Shown here one piece after another: positions 9,959 through 44,706 of a DNA stretch of 64,000 nucleotides (its first letter is position 1; every line of letters starts with the position of its first letter). Origin of the DNA: Amycolatopsis balhimycina FH 1894. GTDB taxonomy: Bacteria; Actinomycetota; Actinomycetes; Mycobacteriales; Pseudonocardiaceae. Made by a program: the position numbers and the translations under genes. The DNA lies in the NCBI RefSeq assembly GCF_000384295.1, contig NZ_KB913037.1, forward strand, positions 10,181,508-10,245,507. The letters run 5' to 3'. The notes under the pieces were generated by a model. That model saw nothing but the letters and a program-made list of their open reading frames with translations. It was not told the DNA's origin and did not search any database.

Positions 9959-11047
9959 TCATGCTGCCGCCCGCAGCGTCCACTTCTGGTTCGCCTGCCC
10001 GTTGCAGGTCCACAGGATCAGCTTGGTTCCGCTTGCCGTGCCCTGCCCGGTCGCGTCGAGGCAGCGGCCGGACTGCACGCCGGTGATCGAGCCGTCGGCG
10101 TTGACCGTCCACTGCTGGTTGGCCTGGCCACCGCAGTCCCAGATGATCACCGGGGTGCCGTCGGCCGTGCCTTGCCCGGACGCGTCCAGGCACTTCGACC
10201 CGAAGGCCGTCAGCTGTTTGCCGTTGGGTGTCCACGTCGCCCCGGCGCAGTCCTGCAACTGGACCGCGGTGCCGTTGGCGGAACCCGGGACGTCCGCGCA
10301 CCGGCCCGACTGCGCGCCGACGATCTGGCGGGCCGTCGACTGGCCGGGGGTGCCGATGCTGCCCGGGACCGACTTCAGCGCGGTGAACCAGGTGGCGGCC
10401 ATCTTGTCGTAGCCTCCGGCCGTCGGGTGGACACCGTCCACCAGTTCGGCGGTGGTGATGGCGGAGTGCATGTCCACCAGGTGCACGTGCTTGCCGGCGT
10501 TCTGGTTGCTCTGCACGATGCCGGGGATCGCGGCGTTGAACGTGCGGGCCGTGGAGTCCTGGCCGGCGTTGGCGATCGGGATGATCTGCGCGACGAAGAC
10601 CTCGGCGTCCGGTGCCGTCGCCGTGATGTGGTCGATCAGCCCGGACAGGCGGGCGGGCGCCCGTGCGACGTCGTAGTTCTGCAGGACGTCGTTGGTGCCG
10701 ATGTGCAGCAGGACGGTGTGCGGGGTCGTCGCGCGCAGCCAGGACACGATGTTCGCGTCGATCTGGTCGATGCGCCAGCCCGGGTGGCCCTCGTGGTCGT
10801 GGTCGCCGAGCGTGGCGGGCCCGTTGGCCTGTGAGCCGACGAAGTCCACCTGGTAACCGCCCGTCGTGACCCGCTGCCAGAGCCCGATCCGGTACCCGCC
10901 GGGGACCTGCGTGCCTTCGGTGATGGAATCGCCGAGGGGCATGACCCGGACTCCGCCGTTCGATTCGGCAGCGGCCGGGGCGGCCGGTAGCAGGACTCCA
11001 GTGAGCAGGGCCGCCGACGCGGCGAGCCACCCGAGTTTCGTTCGCAT
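9959..11047 (-). CDS. SGNH/GDSL esterase (CE3-like) with CBM13, secreted
   Basis: A 362-residue precursor with signal peptide to about residue 27. The SGNH domain (about 33-230) has GDSIT with Ser (about 41), HEGHPGW, GTND, and DGVHPTAGGY. A ricin-type CBM13 follows (about 238-362). It is a paralogue of the esterase at 6090-7097 that carries CBM13 instead of CBM2. Probable carbohydrate O-acetyl esterase; the polymer is unknown. ATG at 11047 has AAAGGAGC 4 nt before it. The gene lies just after the strong hairpin that ends the long sugar operon, so its expression may rest on read-through. Confidence 0.87.
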   Translation of the reverse strand: MRTKLGWLAASAALLTGVLLPAAPAAAESNGGVRVMPLGDSITEGTQVPGGYRIGLWQRVTTGGYQVDFVGSQANGPATLGDHDHEGHPGWRIDQIDANIVSWLRATTPHTVLLHIGTNDVLQNYDVARAPARLSGLIDHITATAPDAEVFVAQIIPIANAGQDSTARTFNAAIPGIVQSNQNAGKHVHLVDMHSAITTAELVDGVHPTAGGYDKMAATWFTALKSVPGSIGTPGQSTARQIVGAQSGRCADVPGSANGTAVQLQDCAGATWTPNGKQLTAFGSKCLDASGQGTADGTPVIIWDCGGQANQQWTVNADGSITGVQSGRCLDATGQGTASGTKLILWTCNGQANQKWTLRAAA

Positions 11048-11070
11048 GGTGCTCCTTTCGGGTTCGCTGC

Positions 11071-11110
11071 GAGGGCCCCGCCACTTTCACGGGAAAGTGG
11101 CGGGGCCCTC
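11071..11110 (-). terminator. 18-bp perfect hairpin ending the PUL operon
   Basis: Two 18-bp arms, GAGGGCCCCGCCACTTTC and its exact complement, with a 4-nt loop, 6 bp past the GH29 stop. It is the strongest hairpin in this part of the window and marks the likely end of the operon starting at 22165. Confidence 0.8.
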
Positions 11111-11116
11111 GGCAGG

Positions 11117-13090
11117 TCACAGGCCGGTGATGGTCCACTGGTTGTTGGTGCTGGAGTTGGGCGTCCACAGGCCCACGCTCGAGCCGGCGGTGGAGTTGCC
11201 CATGCCGTCGAGGGCCGTGCCGGTGCCCCGGTTGACGATCTGGTACCGGCCGTTGCCCAGGCTGTTCAGCCGCCACTGCTGGTTGTTGCCGCCGTTCGAC
11301 GACGCCTGCACGCAGGTGGCGCCGTTGGCGCTGTTGCCGCCGCTGTCGGCGACCAGCCCGTTGGTGCGGTTGACGATCCGGTAGTAGCCGCCGCCCGCGT
11401 CGGCGAGCTGCCACTGCAGGTTGTTGCTGCCGTCCCAGTTCCACTGCTTGAGCGGGGAACCGGAGGCGACGTTGCCACCGCCGTCGAGCACCAGCCCGGT
11501 GGTGACGTTGGCGATCCGCGCCCAGCCGGTCGGCAGGGGACCGGTGCCGGGCGCGGGGATCTGCCCGGAGAACGTCAGCTTCACCACGTACGCGAGCGCG
11601 TCGAACGGCGGGTTCGACGACGGCATGGTGATGTGCAGGCCCGAGCCGTCCTGGGTGCGGCCGGTCAGGGTCGTGGCGGCGCCGGCGCCCGGGCCGAGCA
11701 GCTGGACCGACACCAGGTTGGCCAGGTTGATCCGGTTCGAGCCGAGGGTGGTGATAGTGAAGGTGCTCCCCGGCCAGCCCAGCACTGTCGCGTACAGCAC
11801 GGTGTTGTCCTTGCTGCGGGTGAACCGGATGTCGGTCCGGGTCCCTTCCACCGGGGTGGTGAAGGAGCCGCCGCCCATCTTCGTCGGCCCCTCGCCGTAC
11901 ACCGCCCAGGCGCGGGTGCTGTAGAGGGACTCGCCGAACCGCTTCAGGTGGTCCCCGATGCCGAGCAGGATCGTGCGCTGCCCGGCGGGGATCGTGCCGT
12001 CGGCCATCGGGGCGATGTTCAGCAGCATGTTGCCGTTCTTGCTGATCCGGTCGATCAGCGAGTGCAGCATGGCCTTGACCGAGTAGTACCCGATGCCGGT
12101 GGTGTAGCACCAGCTGGAGCTGGAGATGCTGTCGTCGGTCAGCCAGTAGGGGGTCAGGATGTCCCCCGGGCCGCCGCGTTCGAAGTCGAAGACCTCGCCG
12201 CGGTTGTTGAAGCCGTCCTTGTAGCTGGCGACGACGTCCTTGTTCCAGGCGACGGCCTGGTTGTAGAAGTGCGAGAGGAAGTTGAGCCGCTGGGCTTCGT
12301 CGACCAGGTTCAGGTCGAAGTCCTGGTAGACCAGGTCGGGCTGGTAGCCGTCGACGACTTCGCGGAGCTTGTCGTACCACAGCTGGTTTTCCGCCGCGCG
12401 GCCGTTCTGACCGAACAGCCGCCGCAGCGACTCGGTCGGCTGGTTCGGCACGTGGTCGTAGTAGCCGTTGAAGTGGTACGCGTGGTGCAGCGCCGTCACC
12501 AGCTTGAGCCCCTTGGCGCGGATCGCGTCCGCGTGCAGCCGGAGCAGGTCCAGCTTCGGGCCGGTGCGCACCGAGTTCCACTCGTTGGCGGTGCTGTTCC
12601 ACATCGAATAGCCGTCGTGGTGCTCGGCGACCGGCCCGGCGAACTTCGCGCCGGCGTCGGCGAACAGCTGCGCCCACTCGGCCGGGTCGAAGTTGCCGCC
12701 CGCCGACTTGAGCTTCGGCGCGAACTGCACCCAGGTGCCCGCCTTGTCGCGGGCGCCGTTGATGAAGTTCTGGTACGGCCACGCCGAGGGATCGCCGAAC
12801 ACCGCCTTGTGGTGGTTGTTCTCGTTGGACCCGTTGACGTACATGTTCCGCGGGTACCACTCGTTGCCGAACGCGGGGACGCTGAACACGCCCCAGTGGT
12901 AGTAGATGCCGAACTTGGCGTCCTGGAACCACTCCGGCGCCGGCGGGTGCTGGTCCACCGACGACCAGCTCGGGGTGTAGCTGCTCGGTCCTTCGGTCGC
13001 CCACACGGTTCGGACGCGGAACACGCCGGCGGCCGCGGCGACCCCGGCCACCGCGATCAGCTTGCGCCGGGACAGCTCGAACGAAGACAT
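11117..13090 (-). CDS. GH29 alpha-L-fucosidase with ricin-type C-terminal module, Tat-exported
   Basis: A 657-residue protein. A twin-arginine signal (ELSRRKLIAVAG) opens it. The GH29 barrel spans about 50-400, with nucleophile Asp in DLVYQDF (about 257) and the EHHDGYSMW segment of the family. A C-terminal beta-sandwich follows (about 400-515), then a ricin/CBM13-like trefoil (about 530-657). It releases alpha-linked L-fucose. It is last in the ABC importer-GH54 operon, 10 bp after GH54. It is paralogous to the fucosidase at 56822-59095 but lacks that enzyme's crystallin-like domain. AAGGTCCCCC precedes the ATG. Confidence 0.92.
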   Translation of the reverse strand: MSSFELSRRKLIAVAGVAAAAGVFRVRTVWATEGPSSYTPSWSSVDQHPPAPEWFQDAKFGIYYHWGVFSVPAFGNEWYPRNMYVNGSNENNHHKAVFGDPSAWPYQNFINGARDKAGTWVQFAPKLKSAGGNFDPAEWAQLFADAGAKFAGPVAEHHDGYSMWNSTANEWNSVRTGPKLDLLRLHADAIRAKGLKLVTALHHAYHFNGYYDHVPNQPTESLRRLFGQNGRAAENQLWYDKLREVVDGYQPDLVYQDFDLNLVDEAQRLNFLSHFYNQAVAWNKDVVASYKDGFNNRGEVFDFERGGPGDILTPYWLTDDSISSSSWCYTTGIGYYSVKAMLHSLIDRISKNGNMLLNIAPMADGTIPAGQRTILLGIGDHLKRFGESLYSTRAWAVYGEGPTKMGGGSFTTPVEGTRTDIRFTRSKDNTVLYATVLGWPGSTFTITTLGSNRINLANLVSVQLLGPGAGAATTLTGRTQDGSGLHITMPSSNPPFDALAYVVKLTFSGQIPAPGTGPLPTGWARIANVTTGLVLDGGGNVASGSPLKQWNWDGSNNLQWQLADAGGGYYRIVNRTNGLVADSGGNSANGATCVQASSNGGNNQQWRLNSLGNGRYQIVNRGTGTALDGMGNSTAGSSVGLWTPNSSTNNQWTITGL

Positions 13091-13100
13091 GGGGGACCTT

Positions 13101-13485
13101 TCAGTTCAGGGACCACTTCTGGTTGTTCGCGCCGGTGCAGGTGGCCAGCTGCGTCAGGGTGCCGTTCGCGGTCCCGGACCCGGTGACGTCGAGGCACAGT
13201 CCGGATTGGACACCCGTGACCGTGCCGTTGGCGTTGAACGTCCACTGCTGGTTGTTCTGCCCGTTGCAGTTCCAGATGATGACCTTGGTGCCGGGGCTGG
13301 TCCCCCGCCCGCTGGCGTCGAGGCACCGCGTGCCGTCGTAGACGGTCAGCTCGCCGGCGCCGGACCGGGTCCACGTCTGGTTGGTGCCGCTGTTGCAGTC
13401 CCAGATCTGCACCTGGGTGCCGGGCGTGGTGCTGACGCCGCTGACGTCCAGGCACTTGTTCGCGCCCACCGCGTGCACCGGCCCG
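13101..13485 (-). repeat. CBM13 module, copy shared with 14586-14972
   Basis: The C-terminal CBM13 coding segment of GH54 is closely similar to the one ending the neighbouring beta-helix gene, by my estimate about 80% at protein level. Identical DNA runs such as CACAGTCCGGATTGGACAC occur in both. This points to recent module duplication or gene conversion. Confidence 0.75.
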
Positions 13486-14558
13486 GTGTTGTTCGGGCCG
13501 CCACCGGTGCCGTAGCCGGCGGCGGTGACGCTGGCCTGCACCGCGTTCTCCGTGGCGTCCGACGGGAAGCCGCTGGTCACCGCGCCTTCGAAGAACTCGC
13601 CGACGCCGGAGACGCTGTTGTCCCCGCCCGTGCCCAGCAGGATCGACGGCTCCAGCTTCATGGGCGAGTAGCCGCGCGGCAGCCCGCCGGAGTACGGGGT
13701 GGTGAGACCGCCGGTGGTGGCGTCGCCGTATTTCAGGGTGAAGTTGCTGGTGCCGTTGTTCTTCTCCCAGGCGCTGACGAACGGGTGGTGCACACCGGGG
13801 TTGTTCGGGTCCTTGTTGGACCCGGTTCCGGTGTGGTACATGCCGTTCTCCAGGTCGGCCTCGACCCACGGCCCGGTGCCGGTGCAGCCGTTGAACCAGC
13901 AGGCGGTGCCCCAGTAGATGGCGTTCATGGTGGCGTTGCCGGTGTCGTTGTGGGAGATCTCGCCGCTGCCGTAGTCGAAGCAGCACCACTGGTTGACGTA
14001 GTTCGACGAGGTGATCATGTAGATCCCCTCGGGCTGGGCGCCGACCGGCACGTTCTTGGCGTTGTCCACCCGGTAGCCCACGCCCTGGGTGACCTTGATC
14101 CCGTACGCCGGGTGCCCGCCGACCGTCACCGGCAGCGCCATCGCGTCCGCGCCGATGTCGGAGCCGTTGGGCCCGGGGCCCTTCCAGAACCCGCCCCACG
14201 AGATCGGCAGGTCGTTGTGGTTGGCGGTCTGGTCGTAGATCTTCGTGACCGTGCACCGGGTGCCGGCGCAGAACGAGACCTGCGGTGCCGAGTCCGCGTA
14301 GCCACCCGCCTCCAGCAGGCCGATGTCGAGGTACTTCTGGTCCGAGGCCCGCTGGATCTGGTACAGCGGGCCGTTGTACGCCCCGAACAGGGCGCGGGTC
14401 GTGCTGTGCGCCGTGGCGCACGGCGTGCCGCCGGCGGCGTAGATGTCGCACGCCTGCTGCGTGGCGGCCTGGGCCGCCGGAGCGGAGGCGACGGCGCCCG
14501 CGGTCAGGACGAGTGCCGCGGCCGCGGTCAGCAGCTTCCTTCTCAACGATGAAATCAT
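13101..14558 (-). CDS. GH54 alpha-L-arabinofuranosidase, catalytic domain then CBM13, secreted
   Basis: A 485-residue precursor with signal peptide to about residue 31. The GH54 domain (about 35-350) has the family's vicinal cysteine pair in CCFDYG (192-193), nucleophile Glu in ADLENG (about 237) and acid/base Asp in GTGGDNS (about 313). CBM13 covers about 358-485. It removes arabinofuranose from arabinan or arabinoxylan. GAGAGG precedes the ATG. It sits 27 bp after the beta-helix gene in the same operon and shares a nearly duplicate CBM13 with it. A second GH54 in the window (25786) has the two domains in the opposite order. Confidence 0.92.
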   Translation of the reverse strand: MISSLRRKLLTAAAALVLTAGAVASAPAAQAATQQACDIYAAGGTPCATAHSTTRALFGAYNGPLYQIQRASDQKYLDIGLLEAGGYADSAPQVSFCAGTRCTVTKIYDQTANHNDLPISWGGFWKGPGPNGSDIGADAMALPVTVGGHPAYGIKVTQGVGYRVDNAKNVPVGAQPEGIYMITSSNYVNQWCCFDYGSGEISHNDTGNATMNAIYWGTACWFNGCTGTGPWVEADLENGMYHTGTGSNKDPNNPGVHHPFVSAWEKNNGTSNFTLKYGDATTGGLTTPYSGGLPRGYSPMKLEPSILLGTGGDNSVSGVGEFFEGAVTSGFPSDATENAVQASVTAAGYGTGGGPNNTGPVHAVGANKCLDVSGVSTTPGTQVQIWDCNSGTNQTWTRSGAGELTVYDGTRCLDASGRGTSPGTKVIIWNCNGQNNQQWTFNANGTVTGVQSGLCLDVTGSGTANGTLTQLATCTGANNQKWSLN

Positions 14559-14585
14559 GACGAAACCTCTCTCAGGGGTTCGCGT

Positions 14586-14972
14586 TCAGCCGAGGGTCCA
14601 CTTCTGGTTGTTCGCGCCGGCGCAGGTCGCCAGCTGGACGAGGGTGCCGTTGGTGGTGGCGGAACCGGTCACGTCCAGGCACAGTCCGGATTGGACACCG
14701 GTGATCGTGCCGTTGCTGTTGGCCTGCCACTGCTGGTTGGCCTGGCCGTTGCAGTTCCAGATGACGACCTTGGTACCGGGGCTGGTGCCCTGGCCGCTGG
14801 CGTCGAGGCACCGCGTTCCGGTGTAGACGGTCAGCTCACGGGCACTCGTGCGGGCCCAGGACTGGTTCGTGCCGCCGTTGCAGTCCCAGATCTGGACCGC
14901 GGCGCCGGGCGTGGTGCTGACGCCGCTGACGTCCAGGCACCTGTTCGCGCCCACCGCGTGCACCGGGCCCGC
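14586..14972 (-). repeat. CBM13 module, copy shared with 13101-13485
   Basis: Partner of the CBM13 segment at 13101-13485. Both begin GPVHAVGAN and end NNQKW. Confidence 0.75.
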
Positions 14973-17057
14973 GACCGGGGCGGTGCCGCCGCCCGGACCG
15001 GCGGCGGCGATGACCTGCTGGGCGCCCGACGGCCAGTTCGTGCCGCTGACCTGGACGTTCCCGGTCAGGACGTTGTTGTGCGGCGGCCCGGTGGCCACCT
15101 GCGTCGCGCCGCCGTTGTACCAGTTGCCGCTGAAGGTGCTGTCGCTGGTGTTGTTGGACCCGTTGGCGTTGGTGAAGGCCCAGACCCCGGAGTCCTGGAT
15201 CACGTTGGCCGACACGCTCACGTAGCGGGAGCCTTCGTCCAGGTACAGCCCGACCGTGCGGTTGTTGTCGTAGATGTAGTTGTGGTCGATCGAGCTGCCG
15301 GGGTTGGCGGAGAGGTTGTAGATGCTGCCGCCGTCGTGCATCAGCTTCTTCGTGCCGTGCACCCGGTTGTAGCTGACGACGGTGTCCCGCAGCGTCGTCG
15401 GCGTGTTGTAGACGGGCTGGTAGTCGTACAGGCCGCGGTTGCGGTAGTCCTGGCTGCCGCCCTGGTCGTTGGCGCCCCAGCCCCAGCCGACGTCGATGCC
15501 GTCGTAGGTCAGGTTCGAGACGTCGTTGTGCGAGATGACGGTGTGCGTGGCGTAGGTCGAGAGGATGCCGGCCATTTCGCGGTAGTCGAGGGCGACCCGG
15601 GTCACCGTGTTGTTCGAGATGGTGATGTCCTTGTTCGTCATCGCCGCGTTGGACGGGTGGTGGGCGTCGGTGCGCACGCCGCCGACGATGACGCCGCCGC
15701 CCGAGTCCTCGGTGAACGTGTTGTGGTCGACGGTGACCGACGACGCTCCGAGGCCGATCCCGGAGGCGTGCGCGTTCGCGTCGTTGCCGATGCCGAGCGC
15801 GACCTGGCCGAGGTGGGTGAACGTGTTGCCGCTGAAGGAGATTCCGGTGGCGGCCGAGATCTGGACGGCCGCGGGCGCCTGGGCCCAGGTGCTGCGGGCG
15901 CCCTCGAACTGCTTGCAGCCCGACTGGCAGGAGGTCAGGAAATCACCCGGCATCGGAACCGCGGCCGGGAGGAAGGTGCCGGTCTGCTGGTTCGCGTACC
16001 CGACCGACGTGCTCGGCGTGAGCCACGTCGTGTGCTCGAAGTGCAGGTCCTTGAAGGCGAGGTTGCGCGCCGGGTTGTCGTAGCTGCCGCTGATCTGCAG
16101 CAGCGACGTCAGCCTCGGCAGCTCGACGTCGTGGCTGCCGGGGACCCAGCCGCCGGGTGCCTTGTAGTACAGCTTCCCGGCCTGCGGGTCCAGGTACCAC
16201 TGACCCGTGTTCTTGAGGAAGGAGTAGGAGTTCTCCAGGAAGAGCTGGCCGCCGCCGAAGGGCTTGGCGAGGGTGTCGTAGCCCCAGTTGTTGTTGTTCC
16301 ACGCGGGTTGCTGCATGACGATCGAGGTGCCGCTGATGTGGTCGACGGGGGAGTACCGGTCGGTGAACGAGTTCTGGCTCTCCACCTCGATCCGGTTCTG
16401 CTGCGGCAGCGTGGCGAGGTAGTTCAGCGCGGAGTTGGTGATCGTCATCCCGCTCGTGGTGAACTGCACGTCGTTGCGGGAGATCGGGATCTGCGCGCGC
16501 TGGGCGAGCGCGCCGTCGACGAACAGCTGCCGGGAGTCGGCGCCCTGCGGCACGGACGCCACCCAGATGTTCTGGCCCGCGTCCTGCACCGACCAGCCGC
16601 CGACCTGGGTGCCGCCCGAGAGGATCGGGGTCTGGCCGGCCGCGGCCTGCCAGGTGACGGTGTGGCCGTTCTGCCCCGAGTCGGCGCTGGTGAACGCCAG
16701 CGGGGCGGACAGCCGGTAGGTGCCCCCGGCGAGCTGCACGACCACGTCGTTGGCGCCCGCCTGGGCCCTGGCCAGCTGCTGGGCCTTGGCCGGGGTGGCG
16801 ACCGGCTGGTCGGGAGTGCCGGGGTTGGTGTCGTTGCCGTCCGGGGCGACGGCGATGGTGACGGTCGCGGCGTGGGCGGCGGGTGCGGCGACCGTGGTCA
16901 GTGCCAATCCGGCCAAAAGTAGGCCGACCCCCACGCGGCACGTAACCGCTGCTACGAAGCCATTCGGCCGTGGCTGTGGTCGGATTGGTACTGATCGGCA
17001 CAGTATCAGTGCGGTGGCGAATGTGGTGGCGAGCGCGGCGGCGGTGCGCGACGGCAT
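14586..17057 (-). CDS. right-handed parallel beta-helix enzyme with CBM13, secreted; signal peptide interrupted by a 108-nt insertion
   Basis: An 823-residue precursor. From about residue 64 it reads TVTIAVAPDGNDTNPGTPDQP, the usual start of right-handed beta-helix glycoside hydrolases and lyases. Repeated coils with NxFT/NTV/SHNDVS asparagine ladders run to about 690, and CBM13 fills about 695-823. The fold suggests a GH141/GH120-like glycosidase, but I cannot assign family or substrate. The N-terminus is odd: residues about 17-52 derive from a structured repeat (16905-17005) plus its 7-bp direct repeat. Without these 36 codons the protein has an ordinary signal peptide ending AAPAAHA. GAGAGG precedes ATG 17057. 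It is fifth of seven genes in the operon. Confidence 0.82.
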   Translation of the reverse strand: MPSRTAAALATTFATALILCRSVPIRPQPRPNGFVAAVTCRVGVGLLLAGLALTTVAAPAAHAATVTIAVAPDGNDTNPGTPDQPVATPAKAQQLARAQAGANDVVVQLAGGTYRLSAPLAFTSADSGQNGHTVTWQAAAGQTPILSGGTQVGGWSVQDAGQNIWVASVPQGADSRQLFVDGALAQRAQIPISRNDVQFTTSGMTITNSALNYLATLPQQNRIEVESQNSFTDRYSPVDHISGTSIVMQQPAWNNNNWGYDTLAKPFGGGQLFLENSYSFLKNTGQWYLDPQAGKLYYKAPGGWVPGSHDVELPRLTSLLQISGSYDNPARNLAFKDLHFEHTTWLTPSTSVGYANQQTGTFLPAAVPMPGDFLTSCQSGCKQFEGARSTWAQAPAAVQISAATGISFSGNTFTHLGQVALGIGNDANAHASGIGLGASSVTVDHNTFTEDSGGGVIVGGVRTDAHHPSNAAMTNKDITISNNTVTRVALDYREMAGILSTYATHTVISHNDVSNLTYDGIDVGWGWGANDQGGSQDYRNRGLYDYQPVYNTPTTLRDTVVSYNRVHGTKKLMHDGGSIYNLSANPGSSIDHNYIYDNNRTVGLYLDEGSRYVSVSANVIQDSGVWAFTNANGSNNTSDSTFSGNWYNGGATQVATGPPHNNVLTGNVQVSGTNWPSGAQQVIAAAGPGGGTAPVAGPVHAVGANRCLDVSGVSTTPGAAVQIWDCNGGTNQSWARTSARELTVYTGTRCLDASGQGTSPGTKVVIWNCNGQANQQWQANSNGTITGVQSGLCLDVTGSATTNGTLVQLATCAGANNQKWTLG
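16898..17012. repeat. 7-bp direct repeat TCAGTGC flanking the inserted element
   Basis: TCAGTGC occurs at 16898-16904 and again at 17006-17012, directly abutting the 101-bp element. Element plus one repeat is 108 nt, exactly 36 codons, so the host frame is kept. Deleting this unit rejoins GCA CTG A to CC ACG and restores a plain signal-peptide coding sequence, as expected of a target-site duplication. Confidence 0.75.
16905..17005 (+). mobile_element. structured 101-bp repeat element, copy 1 (in a signal peptide)
   Basis: From 16907 to 17005, 91 of 99 bases match 44608-44706 without gaps. It has no transposase and no classical terminal inverted repeats. The left flank and end (16896-16914, GGTCAGTGCCAATCCGGCC) can pair with 16978-16996 (GGTCGGATTGGTACTGATC) in 19 continuous pairs. 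Three of these are G-U if the plus strand is RNA and would be A-C mismatches on the other strand. Inside, CGGCC/GGCCG, GCGG/CCGC and CGAA/TTCG can form small hairpins. The gene it interrupts reads through it on the minus strand. It could be a non-autonomous mobile element or a structured RNA gene; family not recognised. Confidence 0.7.
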
Positions 17058-42641: not shown

Positions 42642-43937
42642 GTGAGGGAAGTGCGCACCGACGACACCGCCGAAGCCGTCCTGCCGCTGCTCGGGCATCC
42701 GCTGTTCACGCGGGTGGCCCGGATCGGCAGGCGGCTGCGGCGGGCCGACCGGGACCACCCGTGGCTGCTGGACGCCGCCGTGGTCGCCGTGGTCGTCCTG
42801 CTGTTCGGCGTGCCGGACTTCGTGCGCTGGGACGGCGACGGCCCCGGCGACGGCCCGCCGATCACGTTCGTGCAGCTCCCGACGGTTGCCATGCTGGCCA
42901 TGCAGGCCGGGCTGATCCTGCCGCTGCTGTGGCGGCGGCGGGCCCCGTACGCGGCGTTCGCCGTGATCGCGGCGGTGTTCCTGCTGCAGTGGACACTGGG
43001 GGCGTTCCTGCGGGCCGACGTCGCCCTGCTCGTCGCCCTGTACAGCGTCACCCTGCACGGCCGCTTCCGGTACCTGCCGTGGGCCTGCGCGGCCGCGGCA
43101 GGCCTGCTCGTCCCGGTGGCGGTGCGCGTCTCGGCCGTGGTGTCCGTCTGGGGAGCGCTGTTCTTCCTGGTCGGCACCGCGACCGCGGCCGTCGCCCTCG
43201 GGTTCGCGGTGCGGATCCGGCGGGCCCAGCTCGCCAACCTGCGCGACCGTGCCCTCCGCCTGGAGATCGAACGGGACCAGCGCAGCAAGCTCGCCGCGGT
43301 CACCGAACGCACGCGCGTGGCCCGGGAGATGCACGACATCATCGGCCACAACCTGTCGGTGATCATCACGCTGGCCGACGGCGGGGCGTACGCGGCCGAG
43401 GCCACCCCCGAACGCAGCCGGGAGGCGCTCCGGCTCGTCGGGGAGGCCGGCCGCCAGGCCCTGGGCGAGCTGCGGCGCATGCTCGGCGTCCTGCGCGAGC
43501 AGGCCACCGCGCCCGAACTCCATCCCCAGCCCCGCATCGCCGACATCGAGGCGTTGTGCGGCAGGCTGGGCGCGGCCGGCCCCGAGGTCGTCTACCGTTC
43601 GGGCGGCGAGCTGGAGTCCCTGGACCACGCAGTGCAGCTGATGGCGTACCGCATCGTCCAGGAGGCGCTCACCAACAGCCTGAAGCACGCCGGCTCCGGC
43701 ACCCGGATCCAGGTCGCGCTCACCGTGGAAGGCGCGCAGCTGCGGATCCACGTCCACGACACCGGACGGCCCGGCGGCACCGGCGAGCCGTCGCCCGGTG
43801 AAGGGCACGGGCTCGCCGGCATGCGGGAACGCGCGGCGCTCTACGGCGGAACCGTCACCGCGGGGCCCGAGCCCGGCGGCGGCTGGAGCGTGCGGGCCGT
43901 CCTCGACGTCACCCCGATCTCGGGCGGTGCGGCATGA
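42642..43937 (+). CDS. NarL-type sensor histidine kinase
   Basis: A 431-residue protein with four or five transmembrane segments at about 50-195, no extracellular sensor, and a HisKA_3 domain with His in REMHDIIGHNL (about 229). A HATPase of the NarX/DesK type (about 320-425) has NSLKHA and GHGLAGMRERA. Such kinases sense membrane state or antibiotics. GTG start 42642; the next in-frame GTG (42651) is possible. The stop overlaps the regulator's ATG. Confidence 0.9.
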   Translation: MREVRTDDTAEAVLPLLGHPLFTRVARIGRRLRRADRDHPWLLDAAVVAVVVLLFGVPDFVRWDGDGPGDGPPITFVQLPTVAMLAMQAGLILPLLWRRRAPYAAFAVIAAVFLLQWTLGAFLRADVALLVALYSVTLHGRFRYLPWACAAAAGLLVPVAVRVSAVVSVWGALFFLVGTATAAVALGFAVRIRRAQLANLRDRALRLEIERDQRSKLAAVTERTRVAREMHDIIGHNLSVIITLADGGAYAAEATPERSREALRLVGEAGRQALGELRRMLGVLREQATAPELHPQPRIADIEALCGRLGAAGPEVVYRSGGELESLDHAVQLMAYRIVQEALTNSLKHAGSGTRIQVALTVEGAQLRIHVHDTGRPGGTGEPSPGEGHGLAGMRERAALYGGTVTAGPEPGGGWSVRAVLDVTPISGGAA

Positions 43938-44608
43938 CCAGCGTGCTCATCGTGGACGACCAGCCCCTGCAGCGCTTCGGCTTCCGGATGCTGCTGGAAG
44001 CCACGCCCGACACCGAGGTGGTGGGCGAAGCCGCGCACGGCGCGGAGGCCGTGCGCAGGACGGCCGAACTGCGGCCCGACGTCGTCCTGATGGACATCCG
44101 GATGCCCGGGATGGACGGCATCGAAGCCACCCGGCAGATCGTCGCCAGCGGCGGACGCTCCCGGATCCTGGTGCTGACCACGTTCGACCTGGACGAGTAC
44201 GCGCACGCGGCGCTGCGCGCGGGAGCCAGCGGCTTTCTCCTCAAGGACGCGCACCCGGAGGAACTGCTGGCCGGCATCCGCGCCGTCGCCCGGGGCGACG
44301 CCGTCGTCGCGCCCGCGCTCACCCGGCGGCTCCTCGACGCCTACGCCCACCACCTGCCCGCCGCCGGCGACCAGGGCCGCGCGGATCCGCGCTGGCAGGC
44401 CCTGACCGAGCGCGAGCGGGAGATCCTGGTCGCGATCGGGCAGGGCCGGACCAACGGCGAGATCGCCGAGCACTTGGTGCTGTCGGAGTCCACCGTCAAG
44501 ACCCACGTCGGCCGGGTGCTGGCGAAGATCGGGGCCCGTGACCGCATCCAGGCCGTGATCGTCGCCTACGACCTGGGGCTGACTCGCCCCCACGAGCCCG
44601 GTTACTGA
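43934..44608 (+). CDS. NarL/LuxR-family response regulator
   Basis: A 224-residue protein. The receiver (about 1-120) has phospho-acceptor Asp in VVLMDIRMPG (about 55) and Lys in FLLKDA. The LuxR helix-turn-helix (about 155-215) contains LTEREREILVAIGQGRTNGEIAEHL and VKTHVGRVLAKIGARDRIQAV. The last codons and stop (GGT TAC TGA) lie in the left flank/arm of the structured repeat at 44606-44706, so the original C-terminus may have been altered by it. Likely controls the ABC-2 operon upstream. Confidence 0.93.
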   Translation: MTSVLIVDDQPLQRFGFRMLLEATPDTEVVGEAAHGAEAVRRTAELRPDVVLMDIRMPGMDGIEATRQIVASGGRSRILVLTTFDLDEYAHAALRAGASGFLLKDAHPEELLAGIRAVARGDAVVAPALTRRLLDAYAHHLPAAGDQGRADPRWQALTEREREILVAIGQGRTNGEIAEHLVLSESTVKTHVGRVLAKIGARDRIQAVIVAYDLGLTRPHEPGY

Positions 44609-44706
44609 TCCGGCCAAAAGCAGGCCGACCCCCGCGCGGCACGTAACCGTTGCTACGAAGCCATTCGGCCGTGACTGTGGTCGGATTAGTAACTATCGGC
44701 ACAGTA
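44606..44706 (+). mobile_element. structured repeat element, copy 2 (between convergent genes)
   Basis: 44608-44706 matches 16907-17005 at 91 of 99 positions without gaps. The left arm including flank (44600-44615) pairs with 44679-44694 in 16 continuous pairs, with three G-U if RNA is read from the plus strand. Four arm pairs differ from copy 1 on both sides (double changes that keep pairing). The left side gives the TGA of the LuxR-type regulator and the right arm gives the TAA of the minus-strand FucU gene. No flanking direct repeat is visible here. A bidirectional terminator role is possible. Confidence 0.7.

Follow-up and report, generated by a model that had tools for sequence, protein, structure and literature searches.

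To our knowledge, few DNA elements are known to choose their target through base pairing, and all of these have a known enzyme. With the IS110 bridge RNA, base pairing directs insertion and the junctions are precise. The HEARO/IscB-associated omega RNAs are structured mobile stretches that sometimes lack an ORF, and RUP is an example of a small TA-target MITE of the IS630/Tc1 type. IS608 inserts 3' of TTAC, a target that is kept in the left flank and that one account of this system describes as being read through pairing with a guide carried by the element (PMC5934647). REPs are described as high-copy, gene-less, palindromic sequences and are proposed to be mobilized in trans by TnpA_REP (PMC8266576; PMC6006769; PMC3733652; PMC3686654); CGTC-tagged REPs are reported in one of these sources without a dedicated transposase (PMC3733652).

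The window analyzed here is a 64,000-nucleotide stretch of the Amycolatopsis balhimycina FH 1894 genome, and it contains two copies of a gene-less element of about 102 nt. The element is dispersed, its plus strand can fold into a hairpin, and it has inserted precisely at many sites; three bases of its right arm (the guide) are often complementary to the three host bases next to its left end. A search of the open-licence literature found no published description of such an element. Left-side bases are given negative numbers, with the first element base, N', at -8, and right-arm bases carry the prefix R. The features of the two copies are as follows.

16903 to 17004, plus strand: first copy of the element (copy 1), with a length of 102 nt, N' at -8 as its first base, and the T of CACAGT as its last (column counts and the empty site in relative G078)
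16900 to 16902, plus strand: AGT, the host target triplet bordering copy 1 on the left (the same triplet is in the G078 empty site, L167)
16903 to 16914, plus strand: left arm of copy 1, within the element (folding, covariation)
16978 to 16989, plus strand: right arm of copy 1, paired with 16903-16914 (folding, covariation)
16990 to 16992, plus strand: guide triplet of copy 1, which is ACT where the consensus is AAC and complements host AGT (alignment, pair counts, empty site)
16993 to 17004, plus strand: single-stranded 3' tail of copy 1, GATCGGCACAGT (conserved columns outside the helix)
44604 to 44705, plus strand: second copy of the element (copy 2), also with a length of 102 nt and with probable bounds set by homology to copies that have empty sites
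44601 to 44603, plus strand: GTT, the triplet that flanks copy 2 on the left, putatively host by analogy
44604 to 44615, plus strand: left arm of copy 2 (folding, covariation)
44679 to 44690, plus strand: right arm of copy 2 (folding, covariation)
44691 to 44693, plus strand: guide triplet AAC of copy 2, complementing GTT (copy alignment, window sequence)
44694 to 44705, plus strand: 3' tail of copy 2, TATCGGCACAGT (window sequence, copy alignment)

The first-pass annotation of this DNA had reported a structured repeat of about 100 bp that is present twice, was not assigned to any family, and has arms that pair in both copies. When recomputed, the ungapped alignment of 16907-17005 with 44608-44706 indeed had 91 identical positions out of 99, and RNA folding of both copies paired the right arm with the left end and its flank. 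Relative to shuffled sequence, plus-strand folding had a z-score of -3.04 for copy 1 and -3.71 for copy 2, whereas the minus strand hardly differed from it (-1.10 for copy 1 and -0.26 for copy 2), and a 27-base core motif occurred twice in the window but in none of 100 shuffles. The statement about families also held, as Rfam gave no match in the window at the gathering score; with E values up to 5 at three loci, there were two weak matches, neither of them at the element. No tRNA or tmRNA was found in the window.

The element consists of one long plus-strand hairpin, as predicted by folding, and a 12-nt tail ending in CACAGT. The consensus ends are N'CYRATCC and CACAGT, and N' pairs with right-arm base R2. 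In column counts of 40 copies from the A. balhimycina genome, conservation fell to the random level beyond TTAC on the left side and beyond CACAGTA on the right side, which indicated sharp ends. In an alignment of 39 of these copies, 97.9% of the cells paired, and two-sided changes occupied 35 cells compared to 7.0 in shuffles; when the partners were slid against each other, pairing fell to 15.4-47.3%. A copy with a rearranged right half (L036) was excluded from the 39-copy alignment, the covariance model, and the pair counts. Among 155 distinct copies, 90 were exactly 102 nt long and 142 were between 98 and 105 nt. The exceptions included two short copies from the same genome (L234, 64 nt; L233, 43 nt) and ten 91-nt copies from two other genera, and L173, L197, and L198 formed a subfamily with a different apical sequence. 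Because the apical half was replaced or missing in some copies, the apical part of the hairpin is dispensable. The 91-nt subfamily (L272-L274, L283-L285, and L292-L294 of g19; L275 of g6) had a longer stem, a left arm that was mostly CCAAGAAG, and a guide whose complement was mostly GAT rather than GTT. At the site of the 43-nt copy L233, genome G028 carried a long copy (L354), a difference that might reflect an internal deletion or two insertions.

The annotation had proposed a search for further copies, with their absence from related genomes counting against a conserved structure; dozens more were found in the same and related genomes. In the A. balhimycina genome (10,858,503 bases, one contig), blastn gave 41 matches, which corresponded to 40 copies and one short opposite-strand piece of another copy, and a covariance model built from the 39 aligned copies gave 47. 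The same model matched 44 of 80 genomes of the genus (A. balhimycina included), with up to 48 matches in one genome, and 55 of 390 genomes of the family, which represented 4 of 46 genera, or three besides Amycolatopsis. The 11 matched genomes outside the genus had up to 92 matches in one genome (E up to 0.01). A scan of named genomes with a sequence pattern returned 36 stretches, every one with an Amycolatopsis title, but the pattern was strict and the scan therefore does not bound the range of the element. Exact left-end and right-end patterns each had 0 occurrences in viral contigs, and a distant blastn search of plasmids and phages gave no match. No replication-strand bias of the blastn copies was evident by eye. 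One copy (L003, minus strand, G000:C1:10245644-10245745) was located just past the right end of the window and another (L009, plus strand, 10263362-10263461) was nearby, making four copies in about 65 kb. Head-to-tail arrays of three copies were present in G059, G173, and G050. Such arrays are expected if the left flank of an inserted copy remains a target, and they may also have originated by tandem duplication.

To define the insertion point, 34 sites in the A. balhimycina genome were probed in relatives via joined-flank searches. Many of the sites were empty in relatives, and the comparisons revealed precise insertion. Nineteen sites passed a filter that required at least 88% identity and a junction free of nearby gaps (88-98% identity). 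The join that best restored the host sequence ran from the left flank through -9 to the right flank from +18. At the 19 clean sites, the first host base past the cut agreed with the base after CACAGT in 16 cases and with the base at -8 in 13. Seven sites discriminated between the two; five favored the base after CACAGT and two (L007 and L016) favored -8, while the L003 site fit neither cut. The T of CACAGT was assigned to the element because it was retained at four sites (L011, L021, L025, and L173) whose relative has no T at -9. Thus, the insertion is best described as GTT^N with no target duplication, and the bases from -11 to -9 are host sequence outside the repeat. Junction indels at L030, L039, L040, L198, and L234 were incompatible with any exact cut, and relatives had copies at the same sites as L029, L039, L232, and L233.

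Duplication of a TA target was also considered. Among the 147 copies used for pair counts, A followed CACAGT in 111 and A was at -8 in 125, which gives a TA on either side of the element at most junctions. A TA duplication was dropped, however, because only 2 of 16 copies with G at -8 had G after CACAGT (11 had A), which is unlike the behavior of a duplicated base, and because the host base was not A at four of the 19 clean sites (L003, L006, L008, and L025), being C in L006, L008, and L025 and T in one.

The pair counts were based on the 155 distinct copies, which were hand-listed on one strand each. Eight were dropped, including L095, which had unusual arms that were well paired by eye, and 147 were in register: 46 from A. 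balhimycina, 54 from other genomes of the genus, and 47 from other genera. One genome may be represented in this set under two designations, but identical elements were counted once. The R3/-9, R4/-10, and R5/-11 positions were paired in 137, 135, and 92 of the 147 copies, compared to shuffle means of 123.4, 110.7, and 74.0, and 0 of 2,000 shuffles, which take no account of relatedness among copies, reached these values. Within the element, R2 paired with -8 in 134 copies versus 107.9 in shuffles. Pairing of R6, R7, and R8 with the flank was at the shuffle level, which indicated that covariation is already gone one base beyond the triplet. All three host positions were complementary to the guide in 82 of the 147 copies (shuffle mean, 48.7; maximum, 61 of 5,000 shuffles), and an exact match was found for 20 of the 49 nonconsensus guides (shuffle mean, 2.1; maximum, 8). 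By group, exact triplet matches numbered 32 of 46 in A. balhimycina (shuffle mean, 18.3) and 32 of 54 in the rest of the genus (18.1). The excess was weak in the other genera, with 18 of 47 copies matched versus 12.7 in shuffles (maximum, 19) and 1 of 16 nonconsensus guides matched. Flanks other than GTT were matched by their own guide in 20 of 77 copies. Copy 1 of the window was a clear case, with guide ACT instead of AAC facing host AGT.

Since the matched bases are host DNA, the arms covary in part because one arm is matched to its landing site. The four two-sided covarying pairs that the annotation had listed between the window copies were all present by eye, but the fourth (C-G/G-U, -12 with R6) is located where covariation had already ended in the 147 copies and is probably a chance pair. 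The annotation had also suggested that further copies in which the arms lose complementarity would speak against a conserved structure. The arms held together in the 39-copy alignment, as noted above, but 65 of the 147 copies were mismatched at one or more of the three host positions. The annotation had read the wobbles as G-U from the plus strand only; in the outer pairs (R0-R5) of the 147 copies, plus-strand cells that were not Watson-Crick were more frequently G.T (43) than A.C (17).

The variant guides are not simply inherited, as the nearest neighbor by interior sequence shared the four-base variant guide in only 7 of 62 cases. Matching is also not immediate, because L305, whose interior is identical to that of L297, carries a guide mismatched to its own GTT flank.

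The clean empty sites were then informative about target preference and about the direction of matching. In the 19 preinsertion triplets, 42 of 57 positions agreed with GTT, whereas random flank triplets gave a mean of 13.3 and at most 29 in 5,000 draws. Guide-directed choice predicts a one-sided target preference equal to the guide complement, although a GTT preference could equally be read by a protein. The host triplet was not GTT at 12 of the 19 sites. At four of these (L001, L015, L019, and L025), the guide was the exact complement of the host triplet; at four others (L002, L011, L021, and L173), the guide fits the GTT that flanks the copy today, but the closest relative differs; and the remaining four (L003, L004, L007, and L016) showed neither pattern. 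Differences between flank and relative affected 9 of 57 positions from -11 to -9 compared to 90 of 1,371 in the background, a modest excess, and by eye six of the nine were toward the guide and three were not. Position -13, which is outside the pairing, differed in 6 of 19 cases, and this was not predicted by the guide model; lineage differences may be a partial source of the flank changes. Orthologous copies in different species (L039/L355 and L232/L356) had two-sided changes at shared sites, which suggested that matching goes on after landing via repair, template switching, or selection. In the nine g19 copies, the guide complement was GAT in seven, and five of the present flanks ended in AT.

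No candidate for the mobilizing enzyme came from the profiles of single-strand transposases. The Y1 transposase profile PF01797 (E up to 0.001) matched none of the 80 genomes of the genus and 5 of 14 control genomes, and this profile covers RAYTs and TnpA_REP only partly; in one description, TnpA_REP proteins show only partial alignment with it (PMC6006769). The Y2 transposase profile PF04986 matched 0 of 80 genomes of the genus, but the control was also 0 of 14, so this negative carries no information. When the A. balhimycina genome was scanned for the element ends with up to 3 mismatches, there were 38 right-end and 36 left-end hits, all of which were within short elements, and no long form with the element's ends was found. 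Of these hits, 32 right ends and 33 left ends were in the 40 blastn copies, and the remaining 6 and 3 were in other short copies. A second guide of the kind expected from IS608 (tail CACAGT against an internal RCTGTG) showed no covariation in 136 copies.

The resemblance to IS608 and the IS200/IS605 family is close in several respects: precise insertion 3' of a short retained left target without duplication (16 of 19 clean sites), a folded strand, and a left target that pairs with an internal guide, which may have a causal role. Unlike IS200/IS605, the element belongs to a genus in which no Y1 gene was detectable (0 of 80 genomes), and no second guide was supported. Unlike IS608, it is one long hairpin instead of two end hairpins, its guide is across the stem, and the guides often fit the individual site. 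The element resembles the REP/RAYT system in being high-copy, gene-less, and palindromic, but it is far longer than a single REP hairpin and has no terminal GTAG/CGTC tag; its empty sites define an exact insertion with a host-matched arm, and no PF01797 match was found in the 80 genomes. In its logic, the element behaves as a single-strand element with guide pairing would, but because the defining enzyme was looked for and not found, it was not filed under IS200/IS605 or REP. Small IS630/Tc1-type MITEs share its size of about 100 bp, lack of genes, many copies, and predominance of TA junctions, but they differ in that no base was duplicated at 5 of 7 discriminating sites here and the GTT target is one-sided. 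HEARO is likewise structured, mobile, and sometimes without an ORF, but the window had no Rfam family match. The IS110 bridge RNA shares pairing-linked insertion and precise junctions, but the element shows only one short guide.

The pairing of the right arm with three adjacent host bases suggests that the site is chosen or adjusted by base pairing. We give about an even chance to the reading that this is a nonautonomous element of about 102 nt that is moved in trans via a folded single strand, with the right arm pairing with the target. An enzyme supplied in trans, which would not be a detectable Y1 protein of the IS200/IS605 or RAYT type, would cut and join the folded strand, most likely as single-stranded DNA. 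The target would be recognized by pairing with the right-arm triplet, so that the hairpin is rebuilt across the left junction, and mismatches between host and guide could later be resolved either way by hairpin repair or by template switching between the arms. A bolder version, in which a self-guided, gene-less hairpin is moved by a non-Y1 enzyme, its arm picks the site, mismatches are rewritten in both directions, and the guide is re-programmed during spread, is more tentative, and we hold it as a possible but doubtful reading.

A classical MITE is a rather unlikely alternative. In this case, a transposase or recombinase (e.g., a TA-targeting DDE enzyme of the IS630/Tc1 type) would read the target through protein contacts, the near-palindromic arms would later be homogenized by template switching during replication, and the apparent guide would be a by-product. 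The TA junctions on both sides of most copies fit this scheme, as do the postinsertion changes in the orthologous pairs, and template switching is described as able to create and mend stems (PMC8794818). The base at -8 does not behave as a duplicated base, however, the host base was C at three clean sites and T at one, and the preferred target lies on one side only, where it equals the complement of the guide. In an RNA-borne or RNA-guided route, a transcript of the plus strand would pair with the target, and either an IS110-type recombinase (bridge RNA) or a reverse transcriptase would insert it. The plus-strand structure with its G.T excess and the precise insertion without duplication are in line with such a route, which we nevertheless regard as distinctly unlikely given the lack of an Rfam match and the single guide.

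The annotation had favored a conserved RNA or single-stranded DNA structure. The single-strand structure was upheld and is better on the plus strand, but a fixed RNA or gene-like feature was not supported because the element is dispersed and mobile, and close relatives lack it at many of the corresponding sites. A cis- or trans-acting RNA retained for a host function could explain the strong covariation and the two-sided changes between same-site copies of different species, but the orientation of copies relative to flanking genes is mixed, one copy is read in frame as part of a signal-peptide region, close relatives have many empty sites, and the apical half can be replaced or missing; we consider this idea very unlikely. 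The element could also derive from a REP or an IS200/IS605 element and be mobilized by a Y1 transposase (RAYT or TnpA). Such a derivative would have the same general logic, in which a folded hairpin inserts 3' of a short target that is retained and copies without a gene are mobilized in trans. It is nonetheless the least probable of these readings in view of the PF01797 result, even though that profile aligns only partly with TnpA_REP (PMC6006769).

A high-copy family with this pairing logic in genomes that have no detectable Y1 enzyme points to an unrecognized mobilizing enzyme in the Pseudonocardiaceae, a family rich in antibiotic producers. With its many copies and their sequenced empty sites, the family allows the origin of matched hairpin arms to be tested. 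It also provides a caution, namely that covarying arms by themselves are no proof of a functional RNA.

Both window copies touch a protein-coding gene.

14586 to 17057, minus strand: gene encoding a secreted, beta-helix/GH141-like protein that carries a ricin-type lectin (carbohydrate-binding) domain (translation, Pfam)
43934 to 44608, plus strand: gene for a LuxR-type response regulator, whose last codon and stop (TAC TGA) are partly in copy 2 (translation, Pfam)

In the case of the secreted protein gene, copy 1 is on the opposite strand and contributes 34 in-frame, stop-free codons with a hydrophobic run to the signal-peptide region; the protein of the G078 relative lacks these codons. For the response regulator, the earlier stop was probably TAG, judging from GTT^A and the right flank. 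Crude GC3 ORF calling placed 24 of the 46 copies in the A. balhimycina genome between two ORFs and 17 inside an ORF, and five had one side uncalled. The strands of the ORFs flanking the 24 intergenic copies were +/+ in 8 cases, -/+ in 6, -/- in 6, and +/- in 4, which is the mixed orientation referred to above. In addition, window positions 9967-14884 contained three stretches that are related to each other, with lengths of at most 300 nt and 61-84% identity to a reference copy, and two of the three were in neighboring secreted proteins with a common lectin-like end.
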